DNA from: Mixophyes australis
Lineage: Eukaryota > Chordata > Amphibia > Anura > Limnodynastidae
Direction of reading: 5' to 3'
Length of the DNA: 64,000 bases
Assembly: GCA_036250195.1 (NCBI GenBank)
Contig: JAVHZZ010000003.1
Location: forward strand, 55,691,521-55,755,520
Part shown: positions 3,712-54,852 of the stretch, in pieces
Position numbering within the stretch: position 1 is the stretch's first letter
Layout: each line of letters starts with the position of its first letter
Program-made: the position numbers and the translations under genes
Notes under the pieces: model-generated
Told to the model about the DNA's origin: nothing
Databases searched by the model: none
Seen by the model: only the letters and a program-made list of their open reading frames with translations

Positions 3712-5178
<1,467 letters not shown>

Positions 5179-7307: not shown

Positions 7308-7482
7308 GGGGTATATTTACTAAACTGCCAGTTTGAAAAAGTGGAGCTGTTGCCTATAGCAACCAATCAGATTCTAGCTGTCATTTTGTAGAATGCACTA
7401 AATAAATGATAACTAAAATCTGATTGGTTGCTATAGGCAACATCTCCACTTTTTCAAACCCGCAGTTTAGTAAATATACCCC
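7308..7482. mobile_element. Harbinger-like palindromic MITE, copy 3
   Basis: It begins GGGGTATATTTACTAAACTG and ends CAGTTTAGTAAATATACCCC. The 3-bp duplication TAA is at 7305-7307 and 7483-7485. The right edge abuts a hAT MITE whose target site spans this border. Confidence 0.88.
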
Positions 7483-16483: not shown

Positions 16484-18745
16484 CCAGGGGAGGGCTAGGC
16501 CAGAGGGCAGGGGGGCATGTGCCCGCCAGGCCGCTCGTCCATAATACATTTTGGGCCATCAGGTCAGCAGGGGTGATGCACGTCCATTACTACAGTGCCT
16601 ATTGACAGAGAGACGGCGCATCGGCTCACTGCAGCGTCCTGACGTGAAAAAAAGATGTCAGGGCACTGCCAGGACAGAGGAGACAAGGTGGAGCCTGCAC
16701 GGACGTAACAAGAAGACGCAGGAAGAAGTTACAGAAAGAAGAAAAAAATGAAGCTCTGGAGCGTTCAGGTAATTAAATTAAAGGGAAGGGGGTGGAGACA
16801 GGGGGAGGCTGGTGAAACAGGGGTGCTGAAGACACGAGGAGGCTGGTGAAATGGAGTTGCTGGTGAGAAGGGGGTGCTGTAGACAAGAGGATGCTGGTGA
16901 GAAGGGGATACTGATGAGAAGGGGGTGCTGGAGACAAGAGGAGGCTGGTGAAAAGGGGGTGCTGGAGACAAGAGAAGGCTGGTGAAAAGGGGGCATTGGT
17001 GAGAAGGGGCGCTGGAGACAAGAGAAGGCTGGTAAAAAGGGGGGTGCTGGAGACAAGAGGAGGCTGGTGAAAAAGGGGGGGGCTGGTGAGAAGGGGGGTG
17101 CCGGAGACAAGAGGAGGCTGGTGAGAAGGGGGGTGATGAGAAGGGGGTGTTGGAGACAAGATGAGGCTGGTGAGAAGGGGAGGCTGATGAGAAGGGGGAC
17201 TAATGAAAAAAGGGGGCTTGAGACAAGAGGAGGCTGGTGAGAAGAAGGGGCTGGTGAGAAGATGGGCTGGAGACAAGGGAGGGCTGATGACAAGAGGAGG
17301 CTGGTGAGAAGGTGGTGCTGATGACAAGAGGAGGCTGGTGAGAAGAGGGGATTGAAGACAAAAAGGGGCTGGTGAGAAGAGGGGGCTGGAGATTTCAAGG
17401 GGCAGGGGGGTGGAGAGAAGAGGGGGATATAGTAATGCATGATGCATGCTGTTAAAATACATAAATAATATAAAAAATAAATCAGCAAAATATTAATTTG
17501 CAATAATAATCTCTATTAAAAATGAGGAAGGTTGTAACCCATAATTTGATTGTGGAGCTGGTGGGGAAATAGACATTTGTATTACATTGGAATGTTAATA
17601 ACTTAATGTTGGGGCTGGTGAGGGGTAAAATCGGTCTGTTTGTTAAATGTGGAGATTATTAATTTTATGTCTGGGCTGATGGGTGGGGTATGTTTGTTTA
17701 TTAAATGGGAATGTTATAAATGTTATTATTTTATTGTAGAGGATTGGTTGGGGAGAAGGAGGCTTTTAATTTAATGTTGGATTAGTTAGGGGAAGAAGGC
17801 ATTATTATTAAACATGGGTGCTATTAATTTTATGTCGGGGTTATATGGAAGAAAATAGACATTACACTTAAATGCTATTAATTAAATTCTGGAGCTGATT
17901 GGATGGAAGTAGGCCTATTTATCCAACAGAAAAAGCTACTGATTTAATGTCCGTCTGGTTGTGGGGAAGGAGGCCTAGATTCTTCACTCACTTCTCAGCT
18001 TTTCAGAAGGTGAATAATAACTATCTCTTATCCAAACAGGACCCCAACATTCCAGGATCTGGCCAAGCAGCAACGGAGTATAAGACCAGCAGCCAGAAAA
18101 CACTGGTGATGCGTAACTCCCATAAAGGTACGTTGTAGAAAGAGGTAACCTATTGGTCCAGTGGCAAACGCAGTGCAGACAGCCTATGGAGTCCGCTCAT
18201 AGTAGGCAGCATTGCATACTGCTTGATATGGCCGTGCCATTCATTGATAGAAAATTGGTACTACAGCTTCCAGTACAATATTCTATAAACAGACGACACA
18301 CCCTAATCCAGTAGTATGTGATGGCCACCTGTGCGTGGACTGCATAGGCAGCCTACGCTGCATTTCTCTATAGTGCTACGGGGCTCCTCCCCTAGACTAC
18401 GGGAGCCCTGTAGCAACAAATGACTGAGTGCGATCACCACAGTATTGATGGGCCAGGATGTCAAAGATTATAATCAGACAGGTATGTAAAAAAGGGAAGG
18501 AACATATACAATAAAATGCGTATATAAAGAGAGGTTTGTTTTTTGTTGCATTATTTATTTTCATTTTTTAAGATTTACATTTATAATAATAAATGTACTG
18601 CTGGATTAAACAACACTAAAAAAACCCTTTTTATATTGATAAATATAAATTATACCAAAAACAACCCTTTAAGAATAGGTCGCTACTTGTGGGCCAGTGC
18701 TGTATGCTTGCTCCCCGGGCTGAAGTCTGCCAGCCCCTGGCTAAC
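16484..18745 (+). mobile_element. Unclassified repetitive element with internal minisatellite, copy A
   Basis: Segments shared in the same strand sense with 47103-48350 show a repeat family: the start (GGGCTAGGCC, GGGGGCATGTGCCC, CATTTTGGGCC); a piece with GGTCCAGTGG and AGACAGCCTA (near 18150), then AGTACAATATTCT; and the end (ACCAAAAAC, CCTTTAAGAATAGG, GGGCCAGTGCTGT, AAGTCTGCCAGCCC). Each copy has a different G-rich minisatellite. I see no transposase, RT or clear terminal repeat, so the class is unknown and the borders are approximate. Confidence 0.5.
16790..17420 (+). repeat. G-rich minisatellite (GGAGACAAGAGGAGGCTGG-type)
   Basis: More than fifteen imperfect units of about 30-40 bp, built from GAGGCTGGTGA, GAAGGGGG, TGCTGGAGACAA. 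The two strands are strongly skewed (G on plus). On the minus strand the array produces overlapping proline/serine-rich frames of 229 and 241 codons. These result from a repeat with no stops and are not supported as proteins. Confidence 0.9.
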
Positions 18746-19768
18746 GCCCTGTCTTCCTTCGCTTCCAATCCCTGGGGTTGGGTTCCTACAATCCTCCTTT
18801 ACCCTGGCACATTCTGAGCGGATATAATCTTACCAGTGCTTCCAGACCCTGTACCCCCTCACCTAAGCCCTGACATGGACTGGGACTTATGCTCTCTCAG
18901 TGGTAAATTGGCACAAAACCTCCAGTGTTTAGTGACTGTTCACCACCTACAAAGGAAGCATATGTTGCAGCATCCTGTCTAACTCTTGACTGTTCTCACT
19001 CTCTCCACTCACTGAATGGTGTATATTGGCTAAAGTGAGGGTTTAAAAGGGAAGTCCCCCCCACCCGGGGAGAACGGAAAGCATAAGCAGATAGATTATG
19101 TTTAATAGACCCAGCTAGATCATATAGTTAAATACAAGTATATGTTGCTTATAATCAGGACCACCATTGTGGAAATTTAACTAGCTGTCTAAGGCCAGGA
19201 AGTATCAGTAGGGTTATATTGAGTGCTGGACATTGCTTAGCCATACCTCGCGACTGACCCGTTTCAGCTGGACAGGCCTGATTCAGCCTGGACAAACCGT
19301 ATTCTAAACTGGGTGGCAGAATGTGGGCAGAGATGTGTGACTTGGGGATGTGGTTTGCGTGAGTAGTGCCTATTTTGCCTCATTTGGCCTGGATAAATGT
19401 TGGAAGGAATGTTTAGTGGCTGCTGTGTCACTGATAGTTTTCATCAACTAAAGTCACAAAAGCAGTTCTGAATTAAGCATTTATTCAGCTAGTCAAACAT
19501 GGCATTCAGAAGCTGGGGGAAGCTTTTGATTGGAATCACTAATCAAGGTTGTGATAGCTTCTGAATGCTGATGCATGATAAAACATTCAGAATTCCTCTT
19601 GTGTCACTAACAGTAATAATAACAAAATAAAGCAAAGATAATATTAAGTGTGTTGTTAAGGTAACAAGTAATCCTCATGGGGTGTCGATAACCATGTGTT
19701 ATAAAGTACGCCATGGACACCGTCATGTATCTTTATTCACACAAGATTATACTATGGGTCATTAAGTG
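18746..19768. other. Left flank of the provirus; nothing coding
   Basis: There is no recognisable gene. A 13-bp perfect inverted repeat, GCATTCAGAAGCT / AGCTTCTGAATGC (19503-19515 and 19555-19567), may be the core of an old foldback element. The final AGTG (19765-19768) is the left copy of the provirus target duplication. Confidence 0.5.
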
Positions 19769-20382
19769 TGTCGAAGTCAGCAAATTGGATAAAGTCATTT
19801 CAATTAAAGTCTAGCAAACTTGGTTGTCTTTGTCTGAAAAGATGCGTACGGTACGCATCGACGTACAAGGGCACGCTACGGCGTGAAAGGGCGTACGCAT
19901 CCACTACACGTGGCAGCAACAGTAATTGGTCTTTTACCATACATTCGCACAAACACGCATACTTATAAAATAGTACACATTATTGGTAGTTGCAACACAT
20001 AGTCAGTTATGTTGAAATATAGTAGTATTTATATGTTATATCAGAGTTACATGCATATTAGTGAAATACACAGAACGGGTTAAAGGAATAACATCATGAG
20101 TGGTATCATAATGAACCTTGTTACATATCCTACTGTTTGGTGCGCTCTGCGAGGGAATCGCAGAGTGCATACGCAAGTTATGAATGATAGGGAATTATGA
20201 ACTACTTAAGACTAAGGAATTCTGGCGGGAAGAGCAGAGCATACCCCCTGCAGAGATGACCCCCTCCTTTGGATTCCTTAGGATGAACCAGCCAATGATT
20301 GACGACCCCTTGGACATTCCTGAGACCCGGACCAATAGATGCAAGCCATACCATCTTCATTGTATTACTGTATTTGATTGTG

Positions 20383-20390
20383 TATATAAG
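20383..20390 (+). promoter_or_regulatory. TATA box of the provirus promoter (5' LTR)
   Basis: TATATAAG in the last third of the LTR, about 150 bp before the AATAAA. By comparison with other retroviruses transcription should start some 25-30 bp downstream, giving an R region of roughly 100-150 bp. The same box in the 3' LTR is at 29393-29400. Confidence 0.75.
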
Positions 20391-20531
20391 CAGCAGCTTG
20401 TGATCCAGAGTGCAGACTTCTTGTCCCCAGACTTCAGGATTGAATGACTGCACTGGATCCAGAGCGCCTGCGATAAGTAACGGCTGTATTTACTATTACT
20501 TCGCTTGAGCATATTTTTTCCACTTATTGCG

Positions 20532-20537
20532 AATAAA
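20532..20537 (+). promoter_or_regulatory. Polyadenylation signal in the LTR
   Basis: AATAAA within GCGAATAAATC; the functional copy for the genomic RNA would be the one in the 3' LTR at 29542-29547. A GT-rich stretch (TTTGTGCGTTG) follows, as expected for a downstream element. Confidence 0.8.
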
Positions 20538-20609
20538 TCTTTGTGCGTTGGAAACACAAATCGAGGTTCGACAATCGTTATTGGTTAGCGACTATACGCA
20601 CATAACAAT

Positions 20610-20627
20610 TGGGGGCTCGTGAGCTTT
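20610..20627 (+). promoter_or_regulatory. Primer-binding site, tRNA-Pro-like
   Basis: TGGGGGCTCGT begins 2 bp after the 5' LTR and matches the complement of the tRNA-Pro 3' end, the primer of many gammaretroviruses. The match stops after 11 nt; the remaining bases of the usual 18-nt site differ. Either the site has decayed or the primer is a diverged tRNA-Pro. Confidence 0.8.
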
Positions 20628-21601
20628 GGAGGTTTCGTTGCCGATGATACGCAAGACCAACGGATTTCGGTTCCTCAACAAAGGGTGGAGACGCGTCATA
20701 AACGGGTAAGAACGCATGGTGTTCAAAACCTGAATTTTGCTCTGTGTTGCGAAACCGAATGTCCGTTTTGCATTATCTAGGGCACGCTAACTAGAACCTA
20801 GGGACAAAAGAGAAAACTGTTTCTTTTTTCTGTCATTGTGCGTTTTAACTGTATTGCATTGTTTAGCGTATGTGTACTTCCTGCTGTGCGTACGCAAACT
20901 TCCGGTAAACTTGCCACGTGGTTAAACAATCGTTTTGATAGTTATTATACATGCATAGTATAATTACTTGTGAAAGCCTCTGAGACATTATTACTATTGT
21001 TGGGAACTTTTGATTTTCTGCGCAGAAAAGGTGTATAGTGTGTGATGTTGTAACGTAGATACACTGTTTTATTGTTGAGGTGCTCAGTTGCTGTCTGACG
21101 AGGCGGATTGCCCAACTGAAGGACGGTATACAGGGCAGGTATACCGAATGCGAAAACTGGGTTTTCGCAAAGCGCTACCAATAGATCGCAAGGTTTGCTA
21201 ATAATTAGTATTGGTAGGCAGTGCGATCCGGTCGCACCGTTAGTGCGAATTGGTGAAGCAGCTAGGAGGAATTATACTGGAAAGGCAGGTTGATTGTATC
21301 TACTTTGCGCTCCCAGCGATAATAAACTCAGCAGATTTTGTGGTTTAGCCAGGGTATCGAGGAGCTGATAGCCCTTGGGGCCCACAGTGATATTTCTGTA
21401 TTAGGGAAAAGCGAGTGAGCGCGGCTAAAGGAAATACGTTCACCGAGGATTATAGATCTCTAGCGGTGAGTATAGCAACAGAGTTGAAATTATTAGGTGG
21501 AAAGAACAGAGCATTGCGGTGTGTCTGTATTTCACATTTGGCCGGAAGGAACAGAGCATTGCGGTGTGTCTGTGTTCCGGGTAGAAGGTATATTGTTCAA
21601 C
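20628..21601 (+). promoter_or_regulatory. Untranslated leader of the provirus
   Basis: About 970 bp between the primer site and the gag start, where packaging and dimerisation signals should lie. GGGTAAG at 20704-20710 is a good candidate splice donor for the env message. A 45-bp tandem duplication is at 21504-21593. An in-frame stop at 21494 shows that no long N-terminally extended Gag is encoded in this copy. Confidence 0.65.
21504..21593 (+). repeat. 45-bp tandem duplication upstream of gag
   Basis: The 25-bp core starting GAACAGAGCATTGCGG is at 21504-21528 and again at 21549-21573, period 45 bp. It ends just before the gag ATG at 21602. The period is a multiple of three and is open in the gag frame. 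Confidence 0.8.
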
Positions 21602-22072
21602 ATGGGTGCTAAGCATATGCTAGAGATGGTCAGTGTACTGCCTAAGGAAGGCCCTATTGGTTCAGCGAGGTTTCTCATGTGTAAGAAATATGGTGCATAT
21701 GCAACTGTGTATTGTGACACGTGGGTCGGGATGACCAAAGCTTGTGATAGGCCTTTCCCAACAATAGGGAGTTTTAATGCAGAGGTACTGAATACTGTAA
21801 AAGATAGAATATGGTTGATCAAGTCAACGAAAAAGAGAAATAGACATAATGATTGTTTAAAATTGTGGCAAATGGAAGGTAACATGTGGCAGAGCAGCGA
21901 ATGCAAACCGGAAATAGGCGTGGCGAAAAGCGCGCGCAAGGCGGATGTAACCATTGAGAAGCGTGGCGAACTCAGTGCAAGTGCGCCCCCGCCACCTTAT
22001 GTGGTGGGAGGGGTAAGTACAGCCGTTGTTAAAACTGAAAATAGAAAAATTACTAAGTTGTACCCTGTTTAA
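21602..22072 (+). pseudogene. gag: gag, N-terminal part (matrix and late-domain region), ends at a premature TAA
   Basis: I chose the ATG at 21602 because it gives MGAKHML, with glycine at position 2 for N-myristoylation of the matrix domain. The 156-residue open part contains a basic stretch (STKKRNRH) and PPPPY at residues 129-133, a late domain of the kind that recruits NEDD4-type ubiquitin ligases for budding. In gammaretroviruses the PPPY lies between matrix and capsid, as here. Translation stops at TAA (22070-22072). The downstream sequence continues in the same frame with capsid, so this is a nonsense mutation and not the natural end. As it stands no full-length Gag can be made. Confidence 0.88.
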
Positions 22073-22924
22073 AATCAGTTTCAATCAAGTGTATCTGAAA
22101 ACGAAGATGAACCCACTGTGATTTCGGCCATTGCCCATGCTGTTAATGTACTAGAGGCTCAGCGCAAGTATGAGAAAATGGCTGAGATAGGTGAGAGTAG
22201 CGTGATCACTAGGAGTGAAAGTGTTCTAAATCTAGGGCCTGTAAATCCTGTAGCGTCCCCTGAAGTTAGTGTACCAGAGGGTGTGTTCCCGGTCCGCACA
22301 ATATCAGTTCCCAATGGGAAACCGGATAAGGATGGTGTAGTTCCTTTAAGAAATGTTACAATGCATTGTCCCTGGACTAGATCAGAATTACGTTCCATTA
22401 TGACTGAATTCCCAGATCCTAGAAAAGAGTTAGCTAAATGTCAGAAATTTGTTAAAGACTTAGGGAATGCTCATGAACCAACCAGTAAGGATTGGCGGGT
22501 AGTGTTGAGGGCGTGTCTTCCTCCCAATACTAACATACAAAAATTTATTGGAGATTGTTTGTTGGAGGAAGATGACACCCTGATTGATGAGATTAACCAA
22601 CGGAATATAGAACAAATTGTCAAACACTTAGCCATCTGTTTTCCAGTAGTAGTAAATTGGAGTAAGATTTTCACCATTAAACAAAAGGATAGTGAAACTG
22701 CCTCAGATTACTTTGCTAGAGCTATAACAGCGATTGCACGATTTACTGGGATATCCAACATAAGTGAGGACCCACATCACAGAGAGGTAGCTGTAGGGGT
22801 ACTGATGGATGGCCTTAGGGAAAATTTAAAGACGAGAGTACAAACCACATTACCTAATTGGAGAGGCGTCACGGTAGACTTCCTTAGGGAGTCTGCTGTG
22901 GAGCATGACAAGAACCTTTTTTAG
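22073..22924 (+). pseudogene. gag: gag, capsid region
   Basis: In the same frame as the matrix part, 283 codons after the TAA are open. The sequence matches the layout of a gammaretrovirus-type capsid: PLRNVTMHCPWTRSELRSI opens the N-terminal domain, and the C-terminal domain holds the major homology region (FTIKQKDSETASDYFARA) and VGVLMDGLRENLKTRVQ. Capsid forms the particle shell. The frame ends at TAG (22922-22924), directly after a run of six T (22917-22922). Nucleocapsid follows in the +1 frame. The simplest reading is a 1-nt gain in the T run; a sequencing error or +1 frameshifting cannot be excluded. Confidence 0.88.
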
Positions 22925-23222
22925 AAAAAGGGAAGAGAAAAGTGATAGGTTAATGACGGTAAGTATACAGGCTCTAGAAGGGGTGCATACACGACCACCA
23001 GCATACAACCCATATAACAGGAAACCTAAAGTGATCAGGTGTTTCAACTGTAACGAGGAAGGACATTACAGGAGAGATTGTAATAAAGAAAGACTCAATA
23101 CACATAGGGGTGGGTCACATAGATATCCTCCAAGAAAGGATTCACATAGACTAGAAGACTCACATCTACCCGCGCGTATTACGGCAGCAAATGCTGCACG
23201 GGAAATCACTAGTCAGCGCTAG
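22905..23222 (+). pseudogene. gag: gag, nucleocapsid region with CCHC knuckle and UAG terminator
   Basis: This frame overlaps the end of the capsid frame. It first gives a charged stretch (RKREEKSDR), as found at the capsid/nucleocapsid junction of gammaretroviruses. One zinc knuckle follows, C-X2-C-X4-H-X4-C (CFNCNEEGHYRRDC, 23040-23081), then a basic RNA-binding tail. It ends at TAG (23220-23222), followed by GGGTCAGGT in the same frame as pol. This is the gammaretroviral arrangement in which Pol is made by reading through the gag UAG. The ATG at 22905 is not a natural start; the segment belongs to Gag. Confidence 0.88.
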
Positions 23223-26200
23223 GGGTCAGGTCATACCTGTAGTCTACAGCCAGTGAGGTTAACTGAGAGTCAGAGTGAAGAACCAACAATGATAGTTGAC
23301 ATAGCTGGCAGGAAACAAACTTTTCTTGTAGATACAGGGGCGGCCCGATCTGTGATAACCTCTCCTTTCAATCTACAGGTGACCAGCAAAACTATTCCAG
23401 CTATGGGGGTGACGGGAAAAGTGTTACATTATCCTCTAACTAAACCCGCCGAAGTTACTATCGGGCCTCTGCATACTAAGCATTCGTTTCTCTTGGCTGC
23501 AGCGGCTCCTACTAACTTGCTAGGGAGAGACTTGTTATGTAAAATGGGATGTGTCATATACTGTACTTCAGATGGTGTGTTCCTAGATATACCCGAGAAG
23601 GTTGCACATGAGGTACAGGACATATTGGACACCCCTCCAAGGTTATTGTTACACTCTCCTGTTATAGAACAAAGTCCATCTCAAGTAAAAGGGATGTTGC
23701 TGGAAATACCAGGTTCCCTATGGACCAGAGATGGACAGGACACTGGACTGATGGCAAACGTAGCCCCTGTCATGGTCAATCTAAAAAGTGGTAGGATAGC
23801 TCCAAAAATCCCACAGTATCCATTAAAACCGGAGGTGGAACTAGGGGTATATCCTGTTATTGAGAGGCTGTTACAACAAGGGATTTTAATTCGTACAGCC
23901 AGTACAGCAAATAGTACCATTTTCCCTGTGAAGAAGAGTGGGGGGAGGGGCTATAGATTAGTCCAGGACTTAAGGGGAATTAACAAAGTTGTTGAGAGCC
24001 AATTCCCCGTAGTGCCGAATCCAGCTGTCATCCTCATGCAGATTCCACCGTCTGCCAGTCATTTTACTGTCATTGATCTATGTTCTGCTTTCTTTTCAGT
24101 CCCTCTTCACCCTGACTGCCAATACCTTTTTGCATTCTCCTACAGGGGAGTGCAATACACATGGACCAGACTACCCCAGGGGTTCATTGACAGCCCCAGT
24201 ATTTTCTCCCAAGCCTTACATGACTGTTTGCAATCCTTTCAACCCCACAATGGGTCTGTTCTAATTCAATATGTGGACGATTTGTTGTTGTGCTCTGATT
24301 CTTTTATGTCATGTTTACATGATACTAAATTGTTGTTGCTTCATCTTTCACAAACAGGGCACAAGGTGGCAAAGGATAAATTACAGCCATGTCAGACTAA
24401 GGTCAAATACTTAGGACACTGCCTCACTAAGGGGCTAAGACACCTGACAACCGACAGAATTGAGGCCATACAACACATGACCCTGCTGCAGAGCCAGAAG
24501 CAGATTCGTACTTTCTTGGGGATGTGTGGATACTGTAGGTCCTGGATCCCAGGTTTTTCTATTCTGGCATTACCATTGCAGGAGCTAGTCTCTTCCTCAA
24601 AACCAGAACGTGTCGTACACACAGAAGAGTCGGAGCAAGCGTTCTTTAATCTTAAAGATAGTCTGACAAGAGCACCTGCATTGGGAATACCTGATTATGA
24701 AAAGCCTTTTGAGCTATTTTGTACAGAAGCTGATGGCTGTGCAGCAGGTGTCCTCACACAGAAACATGGTGACGCTAGCAGACCGGTAGCATACTACAGT
24801 GCACAATTAGACAATGTGGCAAGGTCACTCCCAACATGTCTCAGAAGTGTAGCAGCAACGGCTCTTCTAGTAAGTAAGAGCGAGGATGTAGTATTAGGAC
24901 ATAATTCAACCATCTATACACCCCATGCTGTATCAGCTCTGTTAAATTCAGCCCAAACCAGACATGTTTCTTCAGCTAGATTCACAAAGTGGGAACTAGC
25001 CCTGATGGCACCCTCAAACATCACCATCAAACGATGTAGCACCCTAAATCCAGCTACATACCTTCCGTATGTGTCTCAAGAGACACAAAGGGTGGGAGGT
25101 GAGGAGACCCTGGTTGATGATGAGTTAGGCAAGAATACTGACACGCATGACTGTATGGAACACCTGAATCAGACCTTTACTGCAAGGCCCGACATACGTG
25201 ACACCCCCTTAGAAAATGTAGATTTTACGTTTTATACAGACGGAAATTGCCATAGACAGACAGAGACAGGAGAGCTATGTACTGGTTACGCTGTTGTAGA
25301 CGATCAGGATGTGGTAGAAGCTGAACCCCTTGGTCCACCTCACTCAGCCCAGGTGGCGGAACTAGTAGCACTAAGGAGAGCGTGTGAATTGGCAGAGGGT
25401 AAATCAGCCAACATATATACTGACTCTAGGTACGCCTTCGGGGTAGTGCATGATTTTGGGGCCCTTTGGCGTCTTAGAAACTTTACGACAGCAGCAGGTA
25501 CACCAGTGGCACACTCACAACACATAAAAGGACTTCTGACAGCGATACAGTTACCCAGAACAGTAGCCGTCATAAAGTGCAAAGCCCATACCTTTGAAGA
25601 AGACCCAGTGTCATTGGGCAACAACAGGGCAGACGAAGCTGCTAAATGGGCAGCAGGGCAACCTATGACTGTATCGACCGAGACTATGATGGTTTTTCAG
25701 ACATTAGACACGCAGAAATTAATTGAAATGCAAGATTTGTGTTCCCTGCAGGAGAAGGCGGTCTGGAAGGCGAAGGGATGTGGTCAAGAGTCCTCAGGAC
25801 TCTGGAGGGATGGACAAGGTAAGCCTGTAGCTCCCCGAACATACTATCCAAGCGTGGCTGAAGCAGCACACGGCCTGACTCACCTGGGTAAAGAAGGTAT
25901 GTGCAAACTGGTGAGAGCATACTGGTGTGCTCCCGGATTTTCCTCTCAAGCTGGTAAGAAAGCAATGTCATGTCTTACTTGTTTGAGGAAAAATGTTGGG
26001 AAAACTATTCCAACTGAGCCATCCCACATCCCTCCTACAGACGGACCTTTTCAGGTAATACAAATTGACTATATCCAACTACCACCGTGCAGGAATCTAA
26101 AGTATGTGTTAGTGTGTATTGATGTGTTTTCCGGTTGGGTAGAAGCATATCCGGCAGCCACTAATACTGCTGTGTTCACTGCAAAGAAAATTGTACAAGA

Positions 26201-26897
26201 CTTTGTGTGTAGGTTCGGTATCCCTAAAATCATTGAAAGTGATAGGGGTACCCATTTTACTGGTGATGTCTTCCAAAATATGTGTAAACTCATGGGAATC
26301 AGTAGCAGACTTCACACCCCTTACCGACCACAAGCCAGTGGTAAGGTGGAGAGAGCAAATGGTACTATAAAGAACAAACTAGGTAAGATAATGGCTGAAA
26401 CTGGGTTGGCATGGCCTGAGGCTTTGCCGTTGGTCCTCCACAGCATTCGAACCACTCCTAGACCTCCTCTTAATCTGTCCCCCTTTGAGATACTGTTCGG
26501 ACGACAACCTCATTTGATCGTGAGTCCACAAGACGACTTAAAGTGTAATAATGAAGTGACTGTACAATATCTTATAAGAATGAGTAGACAGCTGAAACAA
26601 CAACAACAAAAACTAAAAATGCTGTCACCTGGTATGCCAGAGACGAACTGTCATGATGTTGAACCTGGAGACTATGTTATGATCCGCAATTTCTTACGTT
26701 CAGGTTGTTTAACAGACCATTGGGAAGGCCCGTACCAAGTGCTGCTGACCAGTACTACATCACTGAAGGTTGCAGAGAGAGACACTTGGGTCCATTCCAC
26801 CCACTGCAGGAGAGTCCATAATCCGGAGAAAGTGCAAGACAAGACTCAGACCGACGACATAGAGCTGTCACTTGTGAGCCTGTTCCGGGAGACCTAA
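23223..26897 (+). CDS. pol: pol polyprotein: protease, reverse transcriptase, RNase H, integrase
   Basis: Open for 1224 codons from the gag UAG, so it should be made as a Gag-Pol read-through product. Residues below are counted from 23253. Protease has the aspartic site DTGA (27-30) and LLGRDLL. Reverse transcriptase has LPQGF and the catalytic YVDD (340-343), then FLGMCGYCRSWIPGF in the connection region. RNase H begins near FYTDGN (D663). Integrase has an H-X3-H (from 873) with a CLTC zinc-binding N-terminus, and catalytic D939, D997 and E1033 (35 residues between the last two). All key residues are present. The size is typical of gammaretroviral Pol. With gag broken upstream, this copy can express Pol only if gag is corrected or bypassed. 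Confidence 0.95.
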   Translation, partial: GSGHTCSLQPVRLTESQSEEPTMIVDIAGRKQTFLVDTGAARSVITSPFNLQVTSKTIPAMGVTGKVLHYPLTKPAEVTIGPLHTKHSFLLAAAAPTNLLGRDLLCKMGCVIYCTSDGVFLDIPEKVAHEVQDILDTPPRLLLHSPVIEQSPSQVKGMLLEIPGSLWTRDGQDTGLMANVAPVMVNLKSGRIAPKIPQYPLKPEVELGVYPVIERLLQQGILIRTASTANSTIFPVKKSGGRGYRLVQDLRGINKVVESQFPVVPNPAVILMQIPPSASHFTVIDLCSAFFSVPLHPDCQYLFAFSYRGVQYTWTRLPQGFIDSPSIFSQALHDCLQSFQPHNGSVLIQYVDDLLLCSDSFMSCLHDTKLLLLHLSQTGHKVAKDKLQPCQTKVKYLGHCLTKGLRHLTTDRIEAIQHMTLLQSQKQIRTFLGMCGYCRSWIPGFSILALPLQELVSSSKPERVVHTEESEQAFFNLKDSLTRAPALGIPDYEKPFELFCTEADGCAAGVLTQKHGDASRPVAYYSAQLDNVARSLPTCLRSVAATALLVSKSEDVVLGHNSTIYTPHAVSALLNSAQTRHVSSARFTKWELALMAPSNITIKRCSTLNPATYLPYVSQETQRVGGEETLVDDELGKNTDTHDCMEHLNQTFTARPDIRDTPLENVDFTFYTDGNCHRQTETGELCTGYAVVDDQDVVEAEPLGPPHSAQVAELVALRRACELAEGKSANIYTDSRYAFGVVHDFGALWRLRNFTTAAGTPVAHSQHIKGLLTAIQLPRTVAVIKCKAHTFEEDPVSLGNNRADEAAKWAAGQPMTVSTETMMVFQTLDTQKLIEMQDLCSLQEKAVWKAKGCGQESSGLWRDGQGKPVAPRTYYPSVAEAAHGLTHLGKEGMCKLVRAYWCAPGFSSQAGKKAMSCLTCLRKNVGKTIPTEPSHIPPTDGPFQVIQIDYIQLPPCRNLKYVLVCIDVFSGWVEAYPAATNTAVFTAKKIVQDFVCRFGIPKIIESDRGTHFTGDVFQNMCKLMGISSRLHTPYRPQASGKVERANGTIKNKLGKIMAETGLAWPEALPLVLHSIRTTPRPPLNLSPFEILFGRQPHLIVSPQDDLKCNNEVTVQYLIRMSRQLKQQQQKLKMLSPGMPETNCHDVEPGDYVMIRNFLRSGCLTDHWEGPYQVLLTSTTSLKVAERDTWVHSTHCRRVHNPEKVQDKTQTDDIELSLVSLFRET

Positions 26898-26954
26898 AGC
26901 CTGCAGTTGAGACACCTGAACCAGAGACGTTGCCTTAGAACTATCTTTCCAGCG

Positions 26955-28013
26955 ATGGAGTGGCGGTTTTTGTTTTTCTTTTGTTCCAGGATTTTCCTTG
27001 TTTTTACTTTTTCTAGGACATTCTATTTTTGTGAAGGAGGATGGAGGACGGAGGAGAGTTCTGGGAGTGATACGGATGAAATAGAGGCCGAAGAAAAGTT
27101 AATAGGATATCCTGAGCAGCCCATTATCAAACTTGGTCCAGGGGTTATGAAAAGGTCTGCTAGCTCAGGAACTCGGAGGCAGTGTGAGGGGCTATTGTCT
27201 GATGAGTATTGTATCTGCAAGTTCTGCAACTCCCTAGTTGACGAGAGATGCATCCAACGATGCCAGTCCCCCAGTACTCTGAATATAGGCGGGCATCCTT
27301 TGGAGGATTATCACTCCCTGGTGGGTAAGGTGCTAAACCAAACTGAGTGTTGGGTGAGCTCTCACGTGCCTCAAGGGCAGCATAACATAGGACTAGTGCC
27401 ATTCCCGCTAAACATATCCGAAGTACTCGAATTAAGGGGTGGGAGGCCCATAGAAGGGAGGTACAATAACACTAGGTCCCCTAGTCTGACGCTTCGACAA
27501 TACTCCATAGGCAGATCGTTGCTGTGCCTAAACATATCTCATGCAAAGCGCCTGGAGAATTGGGAGGCTGACCTATCAGATCAGACAATGGCTCGCCACA
27601 CTCATTTTAGAGAGAGACTCACAAGGTCACTACTTGGCAGGAATGCTGATGGAAGTCACAAGTTAGGGCGTATAACCAAACATAAGAAGGTATCTATTGG
27701 AAAAGTCTCTACAGATAAATGTGAAAATATCATTAATGCCGACACGTGTCTAGAGCAGATGGAGACACTAGGCATGGGTAGTTTTATCAAAACTCTGTGT
27801 GATATAATTCATGGGCATACTGTTCCTTATGTTCTCCCTGATGATGTGTATTTTGTTTGTGGGAGGAAAGCTTATTCCTGGGTGACTCCGAGTTCCAAGG
27901 GCTTGTGTTTCTTAGCTAAACTGGTTCCTGAAATCATGACTATTACTCATGAAGAAATGGTAGATATTCACAAGACTACATCACCACCATACATACACAC
28001 ACACACAGTATGA
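26955..28013 (+). pseudogene. env: env, surface subunit (SU), frame lost in a CA repeat
   Basis: The frame is open from 26907, but the ATG at 26955 gives a better start: MEWRFLFFF followed by a phenylalanine-rich hydrophobic signal peptide. SU then has an acidic stretch (SDTDEIEAEE), a cysteine-rich patch containing CKFC, and four N-X-S/T sites (NQT, NIS, NNT, NIS). CKFC has the CXXC form that in gammaretroviruses bonds SU to TM; whether it does so here is inference. The frame runs through (AC)6A at 27995-28007 and stops at TGA 28011-28013. The +1 frame is open across the same region and continues into TM, so the reading frame was lost by slippage in the CA tract. Env starts after the pol stop, with no overlap. 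Confidence 0.85.
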
Positions 28014-28749
28014 ACACCGTGGCAAGAGAAATATGATTCCTGGTGAGGAACCCATAGCTACAAAATTGATTAGTGAAACTGCTGGTTTCCAAGTTATGGT
28101 TGCTCTAGATCTCACCAGGACCGCTCGGGGGACATTAAACTTTAAATATATCCAAGACCTAGCTAAATTAATAGATAATATCACCGAGATGTATGATGAC
28201 ACTTTCAGGTATACTGGAAGGGAGCTACAAGCGTACAAGAAGGAGTTGGTGCAACATAGACTGGTACTAAATTATCTCACCTCTATTACTGGTGGGTACT
28301 GTGTGACACTGGCCACCCAGTTCGGTGTCAAATGTTGCACGTACATTACTAATAATACGGAAGACCCTAAAGAGGTTATAGACCGGAAGATGGGTGAAAT
28401 TTTGCAGCTGAAATGGGAATTTCGAAAGAGCCATAATTCTTCGTTATATGAGGTCGGGGAAAAGGTGGCGGGTTGGTTCTCATGGTTGAACCCAGCAAAA
28501 TGGTTCTCCGGTCTGGGGGAGTGGGTACAGGAAATGGTTGCTAGTGTAGGTAAGCTCCTTCTCCTTATACTGGGTGTCATCTTAGCAATTGGTTTAGTTG
28601 TCAAATGTGTTCCTACTGTGTTGAAGTGTGGAAAACGGTCTCATGGGAGTAACACTGAGAAAGAGACTGAAAGGGTGGTACCAGATACCGAGATCATGGT
28701 CTGTGAAGAAGTATTGTATAATCCTGAACTTGAAACGGTGATTGGGTGA
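28012..28749 (+). pseudogene. env: env, transmembrane subunit (TM)
   Basis: In this frame RGKR (28018-28029), a furin-type cleavage site, is followed by the TM ectodomain. The first residues after the site are not a typical glycine-rich fusion peptide. A helical heptad region (LAKLIDNITEMYDD ... ELQAYKKELVQHRLVLNYL) leads to GGYC and a CC pair ten residues further, a CX10CC motif where CX6CC is usual. Three N-glycosylation sites, a tryptophan-rich pre-membrane segment (WFSWLNPAKWFSGLGEW), a membrane helix (28557-28613) and a cytoplasmic tail of about 40 residues follow. The tail ends at TGA, 29 bp before the 3' LTR. The ATG at 28033 lies after the cleavage site and is not a natural start. Confidence 0.88.
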
Positions 28750-28766
28750 TAGTTTATTACACTATC

Positions 28767-28777
28767 AAAGGGTGGAA
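28767..28777 (+). promoter_or_regulatory. Polypurine tract
   Basis: AAAGGGTGGAA directly precedes the 3' LTR (one C between). It primes plus-strand DNA synthesis in retroviruses. One T interrupts the purine run. Confidence 0.7.
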
Positions 28778-28778
28778 C

Positions 28779-29617
28779 TGTCGAAGTCAGCAAATTGGAT
28801 AAAGTCATTTCAATTAAAGTCTAGCAAACTTGGTTGTCTTTGTCTGAAAAGATGCGTACGGTACGCATCGACGTACAAGGGCACGCTACGGCGTGAAAGG
28901 GCGTACGCATCCACTACACGTGGCAGCAACAGTAATTGGTCTTTTACCATACATTCGCACAAACACGCATACTTATAAAATAGTACACATTATTGGTAGT
29001 TGCAACACATAGTCAGTTATGTTGAAATATAGTAGTATTTATATGTTATATCAGAGTTACATGCATATTAGTGAAATACACAGAACGGGTTAAAGGAATA
29101 ACATCATGAGTGGTATCATAATGAACCTTGTTACATATCCTACTGTTTGGTGCGCTCTGCGAGGGAATCGCAGAGTGCATACGCAAGTTATGAATGATAG
29201 GGAATTATGAACTACTTAAGACTAAGGAATTCTGGCGGGAAGAGCAGAGCATACCCCCTGCAGAGATGACCCCCTCCTTTGGATTCCTTAGGATGAACCA
29301 GCCAATGATTGACGACCCCTTGGACATTCCTGAGACCCGGACCAATAGATGCAAGCCATACCATCTTCATTGTATTACTGTATTTGATTGTGTATATAAG
29401 CAGCAGCTTGTGATCCAGAGTGCAGACTTCTTGTCCCCAGACTTCAGGATTGAATGACTGCACTGGATCCAGAGCGCCTGCGATAAGTAACGGCTGTATT
29501 TACTATTACTTCGCTTGAGCATATTTTTTCCACTTATTGCGAATAAATCTTTGTGCGTTGGAAACACAAATCGAGGTTCGACAATCGTTATTGGTTAGCG
29601 ACTATACGCACATAACA
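28779..29617 (+). repeat. 3' LTR
   Basis: 839 bp, TGTCGAAGTC to CATAACA; no difference from the 5' LTR found by eye. TATA box at 29393-29400, AATAAA at 29542-29547. The right target duplication AGTG follows at 29618-29621. Confidence 0.96.
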
Positions 29618-29621
29618 AGTG

Positions 29622-34931: not shown

Positions 34932-35777
34932 TCAGAGGTTTCGTTCGTCAAAGTATTCAGAGAGAAGAGAATGAAGGTGAGTAACAGTTTCGTTGTCATA
35001 AAGGGGTGATTCGTTTATTGTCCAGGTTGCTTTAGGAGGGCGGTGGGTCAGGGAGGTAAGTACAGCTGAAACAGGGGTGTGGTCCAACCAAGTAACAGGA
35101 AAAATCTGGGAAGAGCTAGGTTTAAGAGTGAGATCGTGGCTGAGCAGGATCATATCAATCCTGGAGTAAGTATTATGGGGAGAAGAGAAGAACGTATAGT
35201 CCCTGGCCAAGGGGTCTAGTACTCTGCATGAATCATATAAGTTATGGAGTTTTAGAAAAGCCTGTGAGGCAGCAGTATTGTGGACATATCTCGTCAGGGG
35301 TGAAGAGGAGGAGGCCGAGGAGCGATCTATAGTCGGGGCTAAGACAGCATTGAAATCCACAGTGACAATAAGTTCACCCTGAGGAACACGCGCTAACAAA
35401 GAGCCCAATTTTTTGAAGAATTTATGCTGACCGGTGTTGGGAGCATAGAGGTTCACTAGAGTGCAGGGGAGATTATTTAAAGTGCCTATGAGGATCAAGA
35501 ATCTACCTTCTTTATCCTTATGACAGTCTCGAAGTTCGAAAATTAATTGGCATGCAAACAATATTGCTACTCCCCAGTTTTTCTGCCTATAGTCACATGC
35601 ATGATATGTCAGGGGTAATTTTCTGGAACGAAGCTCAGGGTGGAGATGGTTGACAAAATGCATTTCTTGCAGGAATGTCAAGTCTCTTTTAAGAGACTTG
35701 AGAGACGAATGGAGCTTAGCCCGTTTCTGAGGGGAGTTGAGGCCCTTGACAATGTAGGAGGTAAGGTTAAGGGCCAT
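34932..35777 (-). pseudogene. L1 ORF2 endonuclease domain
   Basis: The 281-codon frame is an apurinic/apyrimidinic-type endonuclease of the L1 clade. It has LTSYIVKGLNSPQKRAK at the N-terminus, LTFLQEMHF holding the metal-binding glutamate, NLYAPN, and VDFNAVL at the position of the family's GDFN (G lost, D and N kept). SRIDMILLS and the final LDHTPVSAVL follow, where families have SDH (S replaced by L). This enzyme nicks the target DNA to prime L1 copying. The frame ends before the RT; the rest of ORF2 lies in other frames down to 33501. Confidence 0.85.
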
Positions 35778-42161: not shown

Positions 42162-45100
42162 TCACCGCTGGAATCCACCCTTACAGAAGTCTCTGTATTT
42201 TGATGTAATTGGCGGGAAAAGCCTACCTCGTGGAAATTGAAGTTCATTTTTATGAACATCATTTTTTCTATATTTTGAGGAAATACGCCGACTGCTGACT
42301 AGGTTCCCGATTGTGCTGAAAACTCTTTCCGAGTACACACTGGAGGGTGGGCAGCTTAGGCAGTGCAAAGCGAGTTGGTACATGGGTCTCAAAATTCCTT
42401 TTTTGTCCTCCCAGTAAGTAAAGGGACTGTCTGATGTGTCTATTTCTATGCTGCTGTGAAAATAATCCTCCACCATCCTTTGGATGTTGATAGTAGGATC
42501 AGGTGGAGTTACGGCAGAGGTGTCACGTTTTTTGGTTAATTCTTTTAGACCAGACCAGATGTCAAAATGTTGTGCTGAGTCATCTGCATCATCCCTGGGT
42601 CTCTTGGGAAAGCTAAGTTTTTTCCTAGCAGTGTGAGAAACTGAAAGAGAAGACGCCGTCCTGTCACGTAACACTTGAGCTGTCATCCTTGCATCTCTTC
42701 AGATCTGGGTGAGTTGGAAACAAAGAGAAGACATAGCTCTTAAACCAAGGATCAAGCACAGTCGCCAAAATGTAGTGATCCGATTTCAAGATTTTGATAA
42801 CTCTTGGATCCTGGCAAAGCGAATAAAGTACTTGATCTACAAGTCCGACATACTTAGCGGAATTGCTTTGTTTAATCTCCTCCTTCAGTTTCTCAAGCTG
42901 CTTTTTCAAAAGTCTAATTAAAGGAAACACTTGACTCAAGCTAGCAGTGTCTGAACTCACTTCACAGGTGACTACTTCAAATGGTTTCAGCAACTTGCAC
43001 AACACGGAAAGCATTCTCCACTGCACTTGACTAAAATACATCCCCTCTCCTTTCCCAATGTCATGGCTTGAGGAGTAAGCGTGGATGGCTTTTCGCTGTT
43101 CCTTCATCCGCAGAAGCATATACAGGGTGGAATACCACCTTGTCACAACCTCTTGCTTCAGTTGGTGGCACAGCAAATTAAATTGCTCTTGCAGCTGCCA
43201 CAATCTCCTACGCGCTGTTGCCAATTGTCGGAAATGTCCAGATATTTTACGGGCCACAGACAGCATCTCTTGCACATCCCTGTAATTTTTTAAAAAGCTC
43301 TGCACCACCAAGTTTATTGTGTGAGCAAAACAGCGAATGTAATGGAATTCACCCAGCTGTAATGCTCTCACAATATTAGTGGCGTTATCAGAAATGACAT
43401 ATCCTGAGGAGAGTCCAAGCGGGATAAGCCATGTTGCAATGACATCCATTCGATTTTGTAACAGATTGTCAGCTGTATGCCGGTGATACACTGAGTAGCC
43501 TGCCTCTGACAAATATGGCGTACTTGGGTACATGTTGCTGCTGTTCCTGCTGGTGAAGGCGAATCACCAACTCAGTGGGCTGTCACAGTCATATAATCTT
43601 TAGTTTGCCCAGTTCCACTTGTCCACATATCTGTGGTTAAGTGTTCAGTGGGTAGAATGGCATATTGCAGCCAAATAATAACATTTTTACTAACCTTCTG
43701 GTAGAGGTGAGGAATAGTGTTTCTACTGAAATGGTGTTGTGATGGAATTTGGTAACAGGGACACAAGACCTCAAAGTAACTATCTAAAACCAGCTGCACT
43801 AATAGTGGATATTGGATGCAGATCTAATATGAGCATAGTCGCCATGGTGTCTGTGATCCGCTTTGCGACTGGGTGACAGTTTTCATACTTGCTTCCTCTT
43901 GCAAAGGATTGTTTAACAGTCAATTGTTGTAAACTATTAGTAGTCTTCCTCTTGGTCTGCTTCTAGGAGGAATATTCACACCCAGCAGCAACAACAGCAG
44001 CAGCAGTGGGACTAATGCTCAAGAATTCTTTAGAGGAATTAAGGATAGTGCAGGAGTCATCTAGCCTTATCAGCTTGGATGCAGGACTAACTCCGATCAC
44101 TACTGAGGATCTTGATGAGGATGGTGTTGTGGTTGTAGATTGCAGGCGTTGGGATGCAGGTGAGAGAAGGGTCCTAGCTGATGATGGACTGCTTGTTGTT
44201 ATTTTTTTACTATAACTTTCTGATTTTCCCAACACATTGCCATGAGCTCGCGTAAAATGGTGTAACATGGATGAGGCTCCTATATGGTTAAGGTCCCTCT
44301 CTCGACTGACTGTGGCTTTCTATACACTACAAATGGCTAGACAACTATTTTCAGGATTTAGGTAGAAATAATTCCACACATAAGAAGTGGCCTTTTTGGT
44401 CTTATGTCCAGGCATGACAATGGCCTTCTTGTTATCACATGCCAGAACTGCTTCCACTGGTGTAGGACTTATACAAACAACATCATCCTCATCACCATCC
44501 TTATTAGCACACTCGTTGGCTACACAAATATCACCCTCATCCTGTTCCAATTCCAAAGTGGCATCCTCAATTGGTGTATCACCGGATACACTTGGGCTGT
44601 TCAGGCACACATCTGCAGAAATGCTGAAAGGGGCCTTCTTTATGGGTACACTATAAGACAGGTCAGGATTACACATAGCACTCATGGATAGACTCTACTC
44701 AGGGATTTGTGTCATTTCTGAATCAGAACATACATTTTTCTCTAATGCCTTACTGTTTTCTTCCAGCTCGGATTTTGCATGTAAAAGTATTTGGACACTA
44801 CTTTTGGGTTCAGAATGACAAGGTCTTGCTTGGTCATGACTGACCTTACAATAAGATGCCTCAGTGACAGTTGCAGAACTAGCACTTAAAGAGAAAGGCG
44901 AAGGCCTCAATTTTTCCTTGCCACTGCGTGTATAGAATGGCATGTTGGCAATTTTATTTTTTTCTGCACATAACTTTACCTAGACTACAGGTCTTTTTTT
45001 CTTCACTGAGGTAAAAGGTGTTTTTTTACATTTTTGTTTCCCTGACTTTAAAACACTATGCACTTCAACATAGGCTATAGCAGATGATGTAGAGGGATTA

Positions 45101-45186
45101 CTATCAACATAACTGGTGCCAGCAGCTGCTTGGTGCTCCTTGTCTTCTGTGTACTGCTCTGAATCCATTTTGATAACACAGTACAA
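42162..45186 (-). pseudogene. hAT transposase with BED zinc finger, broken
   Basis: Frames read in order on the minus strand: a charged N-terminal part (45186-44695, two pieces); a BED finger split by a stop at 44320 (SYVWNYFYL ... CLAIC, then LHHFTRAHG); the start of the catalytic domain (43799-43572, with STDMWTS-like LTTDMWTSG and YMTVTAH); the core (43533-42664, with ISDNATNIVRAL and CFAHTINLVVQ); and the C-terminal dimerisation domain (42686-42162, with SVYSERVFSTIGNLVSSRR). The first four pieces share one frame and are separated only by stops; frame changes occur at about 43.8, 43.55 and 42.67 kb. The family cuts and pastes DNA with 8-bp duplications. This copy cannot make the enzyme. 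Confidence 0.9.
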
Positions 45187-46200
45187 TGTGACTGCAGATT
45201 TAGAAGAGCAAGCCTCCCAGCCCTATTATTTCTATTTCAGCAATGACAATTAGCAATGGAGCAATGGAGCTCTCCTCTTTGTGTTTTACCTATATAACAC
45301 AGTACAATGTAACTGCAGATTTAGAAGACCAAGCCTGCCAGCCCTAATATTTGTATTTCAGCAATGACAATTAGCAATGGAACTATCCTCTTTGTGTTTT
45401 ACCTATATAACACAGTACAATGTGTCTGCAGATTTAAAAGACTAAGCCTGCCAGCCCTATTATTTCTATTTCAGCAATGACAATTAGCAATGGAGCAGTA
45501 GAGCACTCCTTTTTGTATTATACCTATATAACACAGTGCAATGTGTCTGCAGATTTAAAAGACCAAGCCTGCCAGCCCTATTATTTCTATTTTAGCAATT
45601 ACATTTAGCAATGGAGCTCTACTCCTTGTGTTTTACCTATATAATACAGTACAATGTGACTGCAGATTTAGAAGACCAAGCCTGCCAGCCCTATTATTTG
45701 TATTTCAGCAATGACAATTAGCAATGGAGCAATGGAGCTCTCCTCTTTGTGTTTTACCTATATAACACAGTACAATGTGACTGCAGATTTAGAAGACCAA
45801 GACTGCCAGCCCTATTATTTGTATTTTAGTAATGACAATTAACAATGGAGCATTTCTCTTTGTGTTTTACCTATATAACACAGTAAAATGTGTCTGCAGA
45901 TTTAAAAGACCAAGCCTGCCAGCCCTATTATTTCTATTTCAGCAATGACAATTAGCAATGGAGCTCTGCTCCTTGTGTTTTACCTATATAACACAGTACA
46001 ATGTGACTGCAGATTTAGAAGACCAAGCCTGCCAGACCTATTATTTGTGTTTCAGCAATGACAATTAGTAATGGAGCAATGGAGCTCTCCTCTTTCTATG
46101 TTACATATATAAAACAGTACAATGTGACTGCAGATTTTGAAGACCAAGCCTGCCAGACCTATTATTTCAGCAATGACAATTAGCAATAGAGCAATGGAGC
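45173..46200 (+). repeat. Nine-unit subterminal tandem array of the hAT element
   Basis: Units of about 113-121 bp, each starting ATAACACAGTA(C/A)AATGTG, with GCAGATTTA(G/A)AAGACCAAGCC and TTTCAGCAATGACAATTAGC. Units start near 45173, 45294, 45410, 45527, 45647, 45761, 45876, 45989 and 46103. The array sits between the transposase start and the transposon end, where promoter and subterminal transposase-binding sites would lie. Confidence 0.9.
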
Positions 46201-46500
46201 TTTCCTGAATATCACTGGAAACTTTGAAGAACACTGCTACCCCTCCTCTTTCTTTTCTAGCTATGATGCTGCCCAACTGCACTAGAAACTGCCCCTTCTG
46301 TGTCCCTCTGTGAAATGGCGCTGGATCACCGTGGAGTGTGGTTCTTATAGAATCCAACACTAGCAAGATCAGAGATCCGACGACGTTTTGCCTCGTTTTC
46401 AATTCCGAGGGCGCACGAAAGTACCGAGCCGACACGGATCTGCTATTTTCGGGTGTGTTCGGTTCTCGGGGAACCGAGCCTGAGCAATCCTACTTAGTAG

Positions 46501-47102: not shown

Positions 47103-48350
47103 GGAGCGGGCTGGGCCGAGGGGCAGGTGCCCCCCAGCCCGGACGATAGAATTCCATTTTGGGCCGCCTGGTGGTCCAGTGGTAATGCAATGGAGACAGC
47201 CTTTGCGGTCTGTGCAGGGGCTGTCACATCGCGTAGTACTCACTGCAGCCGCATCATTCATTCACAGAATATTATACTACAAGCTGTAGTACAATATTCT
47301 GTGACGGGATGATGCCCCCGCAGTGAGTACTCTGCGATTTGACAGCCCATTCACAGAACGCAAAGGCTGTCTCCATCGCATCTCAGTAGCAGCTTACATC
47401 ACCAGGTCATGTGACCACAGTGGTCACATGGTTGGAAGTATAGGCGGGGCTGATGGAACTCTATGGTCCGTGTGCAGGAGCTGTAGCATTTCTCTCTGTG
47501 TAGAAAAAGGGGAGTTAGCGTGTGTAAAGGGGGGCATATGCGATTGAATCTGCAGGGTATAGGGGGACATGTGTAGCTAAAGGTGCTGGGGCAGAGGGGG
47601 GCATGTGTAGCTAAAGGTGCTGGGGCAGAGGGGGACATGTGTGGCTGAAGGTGCTGGGGGCAGAGGGGGACATGTGTGGCTAAAGGTGCTGGGACAGAGG
47701 GGGGCATGTGTGGCTAAAGATGCTGGGGGCAGAGGGGGCATGTGTAACTAAAGCATGTGGTCAGAAGGGGGGCCCTAATTATAAAACGTGGGTGATATAT
47801 TGATTTAATGCCAGGGATTGTTGAAGTTTTCTAAATTTCATGTACCCATTTTTTTTTTACCAAATAGGGCCTCCAAGGATCCAGAGCTAAAGTAGGCAGC
47901 AGCCACAAGTGGTGACAGTGACAAGAACAGGTAGAAGAGAGCAGGACAGTCTGCCAACTGTCCTGAATCTGGTGGGACAGTCCTGAATTTGGTCGACTGT
48001 TTCACTTAGGACAGTTGGGAGGTATGTCCCACTTCACCATGTACTGCTAGTGAAGGCAGAACTGTGTGCACCTAACAGTAGTGCACACAATATTGCCTGT
48101 GTATTTTTCTCTAAAATGATAACCATGCTACATCATAGGGGGTTACCCTGTCTATAGTGCCCAGGCCCCCCACAACCTTAATCCAGCTCTTGGCCTGGGC
48201 ATAAATATATATATATGGATTAAGCAGCACAAATAGCCTCTTTGTATATAGATAAATATATATTGTACCAAAAACCACCCTTTAAGGATGGGCCGCTACT
48301 TATGGGCCAGTGCTGTGTGCTTGCCCCCCGGACTAAAGTCTGCCAGCCCT
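47103..48350 (+). mobile_element. Unclassified repetitive element with internal minisatellite, copy B
   Basis: Shares with 16484-18745 the G-rich start (GGGCTGGGCCGAGGGGCAGG, CATTTTGGGCCGCC), GGTCCAGTGG with GAGACAGCCT, AGTACAATATTCTGTG, and the end (GTACCAAAAACCACCC, TTTAAGGATGGGCCGC, GGGCCAGTGCTGTG, AAAGTCTGCCAGCCC). Between 47216 and 47358 there is an inverted repeat around TAGTACAATATTCTGTGA. CTTAATCCAGCTCTTGG near 48177 recalls the ends of the hAT MITE at 32067 and may belong to another insertion. Class unknown. Confidence 0.5.
47556..47755 (+). repeat. G-rich minisatellite (CATGTGTGGCTAAAGGTGCTGG-type)
   Basis: About six units of 33-34 bp with GGGGGACATGTGTAGC, TAAAGGTGCTGGGGCAGAG. The 102-codon antisense frame (47399-47707) is a product of the repeat. 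Confidence 0.88.
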
Positions 48351-54553: not shown

Positions 54554-54852
54554 GTGCTGCCGCAGGATGGGGCAAATTCAATATGTGCGGACAGATGTAG
54601 AGATGAGCTGGACGCATCTCCCTTTTAGCTCCGAGGGGTAAAATGATCAAGCTGCAGTTTTGAAAAAGTGGATATGTTGTCTATAGCAACCAATCAGATT
54701 CTAGTTATCATTTATTTTGTACATTCTGCAAAATGAAAGCCAGAATCTGATTGGTTGCTACAGGCAACATTTCCACTTTTTCAAACCCGCAGCTTGATAA
54801 ATTTCCCCCTAAATCTGTCCGCACATATTGAATTTGCCCCATCCTGCAGCAC
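54554..54852. mobile_element. Foldback element interrupted by a Harbinger-like MITE
   Basis: Arms of about 40 bp, GGATGGGGCAAATTCAATAT with GTGCGGACAGAT (54554-54595) and their complement (54813-54852), enclose the MITE at 54635-54808. The outer foldback is thus older. Its own superfamily is unknown. Confidence 0.75.
54635..54808. mobile_element. Harbinger-like palindromic MITE, copy 6, nested
   Basis: Starts GGGGTAAAATGATCAAGCTG and ends CAGCTTGATAAATTTCCCC. The flanks CGA and CTA are compatible with a decayed 3-bp duplication. Confidence 0.8.

Follow-up and report, generated by a model that had tools for sequence, protein, structure and literature searches.

A provirus with identical long terminal repeats and three coding lesions

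The stretch of the Mixophyes australis genome analysed here, hereafter the window, comprises 64,000 nucleotides (C3:55691521-55755520 of a 3.126-Gb genome; element coordinates are window positions) and carries an endogenous retrovirus (ERV) spanning positions 19769-29617. Base-by-base alignment of its two long terminal repeats (LTRs; 19769-20607 versus 28779-29617) revealed identity at 839/839 positions, as a preliminary description of this DNA had judged by eye; the base just past the LTR pair also matches, by chance. The element is an integrated provirus with two LTRs, a primer-binding site, a polypurine tract, a target-site duplication and the genes gag, pol and env, the primer-binding site and polypurine tract being assigned by position only. 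The identical LTRs indicate a young insertion, and pol is fully open over 1,214 codons (23253-26897), both as described before.

The copy is nevertheless broken in gag and env. Of the three lesions reported earlier, the in-frame TAA in gag (22070-22072) is present in the sequence, and the +1 change near 22917 corresponds to a T6 run (22917-22922) that exceeds its counterpart in the 44 sampled copies by one base. The env lesion near 28000 does change the frame, although its size had been misjudged: four extra bases are found at 27995-27998 in comparison with 15/15 other copies, and four bases shift the frame as one would. The window LTRs are spaced 9,010 bases apart versus a commonest family spacing of 9,005, and the excess of 5 matches the sum of the 1-base and 4-base insertions. 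An origin of the lesions in assembly or base-calling errors might be suspected, as two of the three alter the length of a simple run. This is very improbable: the runs involved are short, the TAA is a plain substitution and identical alleles are present in other assembled copies.

A large and young family

The window copy belongs to an abundant family. An exact 36-base gag tag was found at 1,304 places in the genome and an exact 36-base LTR tag at 3,937, both totals being lower bounds because copies changed inside a tag go uncounted. The first 100 LTR places listed all lie on C1 and include 35 same-strand neighbours 8-9.3 kb apart, 8 of which show the commonest spacing. For comparison, 44 other copies were used, namely 29 of the 39 others scored in a gag search (all on C1) and 15 proviruses. 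The sample is non-random, having been picked for resemblance to the window copy, either over 351 bases of gag (29 copies) or in the LTR (15 copies). The 15 proviruses are those with both LTRs among 40 scored of the 455 candidates nearest the window LTR, and their ends were fetched. A separate DNA search with env scored 17/17 candidates and listed none of these 15 known proviruses, presumably owing to the skipping of very common words; its numbers are no copy counts.

Most sampled copies have open genes: gag is open in 33/44, env (at least 600 codons) in 12/15 proviruses and both genes in 9/15. Perfect 4-bp duplications flank all 15 proviruses. Their LTR pairs show 0-5 differences each and 29 in total; 13 pairs have some (nine with 1-2, four with 3-5). 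At frog rates of 1-3 x 10^-9 changes per site per year, as used in PMC12822217, the mean age of these pairs is 0.4-1.2 million years (My). Identity of the LTRs constrains the age only loosely and leaves room for some time, because at the same rates zero differences correspond to a 95% limit of 0.6-1.8 My. Identical LTRs combined with broken genes are also not rare here, since the two other sampled copies with identical LTRs are both broken, one in gag and one in env. The dilemma that the preliminary description saw in the coexistence of identical LTRs and lesions is thereby weakened.

Some further observations concern the family as a whole. Comparison of 3,937 LTR tags with 1,304 gag tags suggests, as a very rough estimate, that a third of the LTRs are solo or adjoin a changed provirus, which would be few solo LTRs for so big a family, as in a young family. 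At C1:154032176-154041531 and C1:72277628-72296061, gag tags follow each other on one strand at regular steps of 9.0 and 9.2 kb, two and three in a row, and these arrays are possibly tandem proviruses that share LTRs via unequal recombination. Relatives 84-93% alike across env and the 3' LTR (L076-L085) were also seen; the lineage was probably present in the germline ahead of the burst.

By exact tags, the lesion set is found in the window alone

Neither gag lesion was found in any sampled copy (TAA 0/44, T6 insertion 0/44). The four-base env insertion was absent from the 15 proviruses and from 16 further copies of the env search, one of which has another length at this site. Exact tags of the lesions were searched genome-wide and recur outside the window at 3 (TAA), 2 (T6) and 16 (CA) places. 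Outside the window, no lesion tag has the tag of another lesion within 10 kb of it, and no carrier of two of the three was detected elsewhere by these exact tags. As a set the lesions are thus unique to this copy by exact tags, the outcome that the preliminary description had named as an argument against trans-mobilisation, whereas singly they are not.

The carriers that were read (TAA 3/3, T6 2/2, CA 8/16) do not resemble the window copy. The TAA carriers differ from it by 2.2-2.6% and have none of the 3 other covered window variants in common with it; for the T6 carriers, the values are 1.5-1.8% and none of 6 other gag variants. The CA carriers are 1.2-10.1% distant and lack the window variants at 28131 (0/8) and 27635 (0/7, as the eighth alignment begins past 27635). 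Similarly, the copy whose LTR comes closest among those found, at one difference, has 0/7 covered window variants of the leader and gag, the stop included. In 1,304 copies, a given substitution is expected to recur about 1.3, 4.3 or 10.9 times at 0.3, 1 or 2.5% divergence, so three TAA places are ordinary. We read the lesion tags elsewhere as recurrences, which would reflect slippage in simple runs and recurrent substitution.

Descent from a common source was rejected as an explanation of the TAA, T6 and CA tags elsewhere for the carriers read, with one early-pol site in one T6 carrier as a contrary observation. Also rejected was a lineage of defective but mobile copies sharing these lesions, the first option of the preliminary description: the counts of 0/44, 0/44 and 0/15, together with the lack of a second place with two lesion tags, do not bear it out, half of the CA carriers having been read. 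A moving lineage of broken copies with these lesions appears neither needed nor visible, because only the window has at least two tags and the read carriers are unlike it. We consider it likely that the window holds one damaged copy of an abundant and recent class I ERV family and that its lesions arose on its own line.

Timing of the changes and alternative origins

Relative to the sampled copies, 13 substitutions and 2 insertions are confined to the window copy across 4,467 internal bases, and its 1,678 LTR bases contain none. Positions 20739, 22584 and 28394 are among the window-only variants. Among the six window-only substitutions in gag none is silent, all of them altering or stopping the protein, and env has two altering and two silent ones; in the 15 other proviruses, 19/26 changes in gag and 34/56 in env are non-silent. 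The lack of silent changes in gag lends weak support to accumulation as without selection.

Several observations weigh against an origin of the lesions on the copy's own line. Under a uniform post-insertion clock, 15 internal events versus none in the LTRs have a probability of P 0.008. The value becomes P 0.057 for the 9 events left without 5 CpG sites and position 28131, a variant present in 10/16 env-search copies, most of them older, and P 0.03-0.13 with the internal/LTR ratio of the 15 other proviruses. Because internal events occurred without any LTR change, some window-only changes probably predate the insertion, and the lesions may or may not be among them. A supposedly private CpG site, 21885, turned out to occur at 58 further places, all lying away from the lesion tags. 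T6 carrier L088 (C4) has 23646 though not 23690, the two window-only variants of early pol; the other T6 carrier has neither. A sister altered once more within a tag would escape an exact-tag search, and the reading of CA carriers covered 8 of 16. Finally, the window copy is the most isolated of 45 copies on leader and gag (nearest copy at 0.65%, at most 0.47% for the others). As the sample is moreover non-random, a closer sister of the window copy may have gone unsampled.

The excess of internal over LTR changes could also mean that gene conversion between the LTRs wiped out their differences, so that the insertion would be older than its LTRs suggest and the lesions would have accumulated in place. 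Since the window LTR lies within one change of that of another copy, conversion from elsewhere would leave little trace. In this family, however, it is not the norm, as 13/15 other proviruses retain LTR differences, and at the family mean about 14% of insertions should show zero differences anyway; we therefore regard this explanation as improbable.

If some changes predate the insertion, as the internal changes without LTR change hint, the parent provirus may already have been broken and its RNA packaged by proteins of intact relatives, at least once. Such packaging of already broken RNA is known elsewhere (PMC10924933) and is named as a route in PMC10435555. Likely helpers are plentiful, to judge from the open gag and env genes of the sampled copies, which would make trans-packaging of the window copy possible. 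The assembly contains no parent or sister with two lesion tags, and the copy nearest by LTR shares none of the covered window-only variants. Mobilisation in trans thus seems unlikely, if somewhat less so than gene conversion.

A further explanation, missing from the options of the preliminary description, also fits an origin of the lesions on the copy's own line. Reverse transcription is error-prone, and an error in the last cycle would leave the LTRs identical while the new copy is broken from birth. Such a birth defect would require no helper, because the RNA would still have been intact at packaging. Alternatively, neutral mutation would have produced the lesions once the provirus was in place; two of them are of the slippage type (T run, CA run). 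From the sequence comparisons we infer errors of the last reverse transcription or transcriptions, or neutral mutation after insertion, as their source.

Coding capacity and relationships of the provirus

The features of the provirus are compiled in Table 1.

Table 1. Features of the provirus and its coding lesions, in window positions.
Feature	Position	Strand	Basis or remark
Target-site duplication, 5' copy, AGTG	19765-19768	.	4-bp direct repeat read in flanks
5' LTR, 839 bp	19769-20607	+	LTR comparison
Primer-binding site	20610-20627	+	By position
gag piece 1	21602-22072	+	First in-frame ATG at 21602, starts MG, terminates at in-frame TAA 22070-22072
Lesion 1, in-frame TAA in gag, plain substitution	22070-22072	+	Sequence; 0/44 sampled copies
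gag piece 2, open stretch	22073-22924	+	Sequence
gag piece 3, CCHC zinc knuckle, TAG end	22905-23222	+	Open reading frame (ORF) list and Pfam
Lesion 2, gag T6 run, one base over 44 sampled copies, frame change	22917-22922	+	Alignment
gag stop TAG, pol onward in same frame (read-through layout)	23220-23222	+	Sequence
pro-pol, open: protease, reverse transcriptase, RNase H, integrase with MLV-type C-terminal domain	23223-26897	+	ORF list and Pfam
env piece 1 (surface subunit, SU, side), from first ATG	26955-28013	+	ORF list, sequence
Lesion 3, four extra bases in env CA run, frame change	27995-27998	+	Alignment versus 15/15 other copies
env piece 2 (transmembrane subunit, TM, side, hydrophobic anchor)	28033-28749	+	ORF list, sequence
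Polypurine tract	28767-28777	+	By position
3' LTR, 839 bp	28779-29617	+	LTR comparison
Target-site duplication, 3' copy, AGTG	29618-29621	.	4-bp direct repeat read in flanks

The first 11 bases of the primer-binding site resemble what we take to be the proline-tRNA type. The front of gag gave no convincing Pfam match, a weak one to Gag_p24 (E 0.051) lying under the cut-off. The gene env was assigned by position and by eye and has no family match: its pieces matched no Pfam family at E 0.001, and a cut-off of E 5 brought up nothing credible. By eye, the TM side has a CC pair with TYI after it, as well as a membrane anchor, and the cysteine preceding the CC pair is ten residues off, not six. A folding test found no unusually stable fold directly downstream of the gag TAG (z 0.84), Rfam gave nothing over the gathering score for the provirus, and searches of phage records and for tRNAs were uninformative on it.

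A protein search with pol passed 504 proteins, of which the best 120 were listed, having scored only the 7,992 candidates that share most words. Among the matches listed, the closest are two unnamed relatives with 78% and 57% identity, and the nearest named ones are from Rana temporaria (45%) and Bufo gargarizans (43%). Solved relatives of pol include the reverse transcriptase of Moloney murine leukaemia virus (MMLV). A midpoint-rooted tree of 23 rows, 22 of which were hand-chosen from pol's own matches and which places pol within class I only, groups pol with the two unnamed rows (100/100) in a set of 10 rows (98/95). Its six named rows are all from frogs: Rana (2), Bufo, Ascaphus, Pseudophryne and Leptobrachium. 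The protein lies outside a five-row set that holds murine leukaemia virus (MLV) and reticuloendotheliosis virus (REV) (100/100).

The MLVIN_C Pfam match, the pol matches and the tree point to a class I ERV. It does not appear to be a gammaretrovirus in the strict sense, in which pol would be placed inside the MLV/REV clade. An in-frame TAG followed by pol (the read-through layout of gammaretroviruses), a 4-bp duplication and a single CCHC knuckle are gammaretroviral traits, and the provirus shares them, as well as the integrase tail, with MLV and REV; it differs in the position of pol outside their clade, in a gag front unrecognised by Pfam and in an env that begins after pol, whereas env of MLV overlaps pol. 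With the class I (gamma/epsilon-like) ERVs of frogs and other lower tetrapods it has the pol domains including the MLV-type integrase tail and the frog grouping in common, while its nearest named pol relative is 45% identical and its env matches no family.

Comparable histories have been described for other ERVs. The young cattle family ERVK[2-1-LTR] also has intact beside defective copies, 85% of its elements being a shorter D-type without functional genes (PMC10924933). In the family of the window copy, by contrast, gag and env are each open in the majority of sampled copies, and the set of lesions is specific to one copy. Invading ERVs (ERVi) are defined by identical LTRs, intact genes and polymorphism (PMC10435555); the window copy has the identical LTRs but not the intact genes. 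In frogs, recent class III XtERV-S elements with identical LTRs occur next to older broken kin (PMC8278194), and in the deer mouse waves of autonomous ERVs were followed by non-autonomous ones (PMC10089650). The family studied here was not found in searches of open-access papers, none of which used the host name.

Other features of the window

Outside the provirus, the window contains a LINE-like (long interspersed nuclear element) fragment of the endonuclease/exonuclease family (34935-35777, minus strand) and a C-terminal fragment of a hAT transposase (42165-42686, minus strand). Tandem arrays with periods of about 113/234, 17/85, 46 and 34 bases lie at 45173-46206, 16793-17392, 56078-56333 and 47561-47753, respectively. 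Rfam matches to microRNA families below the gathering score (E 6.9e-16 to 9.9e-8) at 712-877 and 7314-7476 (minus strand) and at 54659-54787 and 57146-57350 (plus strand) are perhaps repeat-derived.

Implications for the family and its host

The observations point to a class I (gamma-like) ERV that multiplied recently past a thousand copies, presumably driven by copies with open genes. Open copies would make particles, and some new copies would be broken at birth, while the remainder would decay later. One may tentatively go further and suppose that an env-bearing class I retrovirus is still inserting into this germline, its invasion standing at or close to its peak, and that broken members ride on shared viral proteins, mutation and mobility being partly uncoupled; we consider this doubtful at present. 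The lesions themselves are ordinary. The interest lies in a young, env-bearing class I ERV at four-digit copy number with mostly open copies where sampled, which makes the family a good natural case for following the decay of an invasion. Its many datable copies would allow measurement of the share of insertions that were already broken on arrival.

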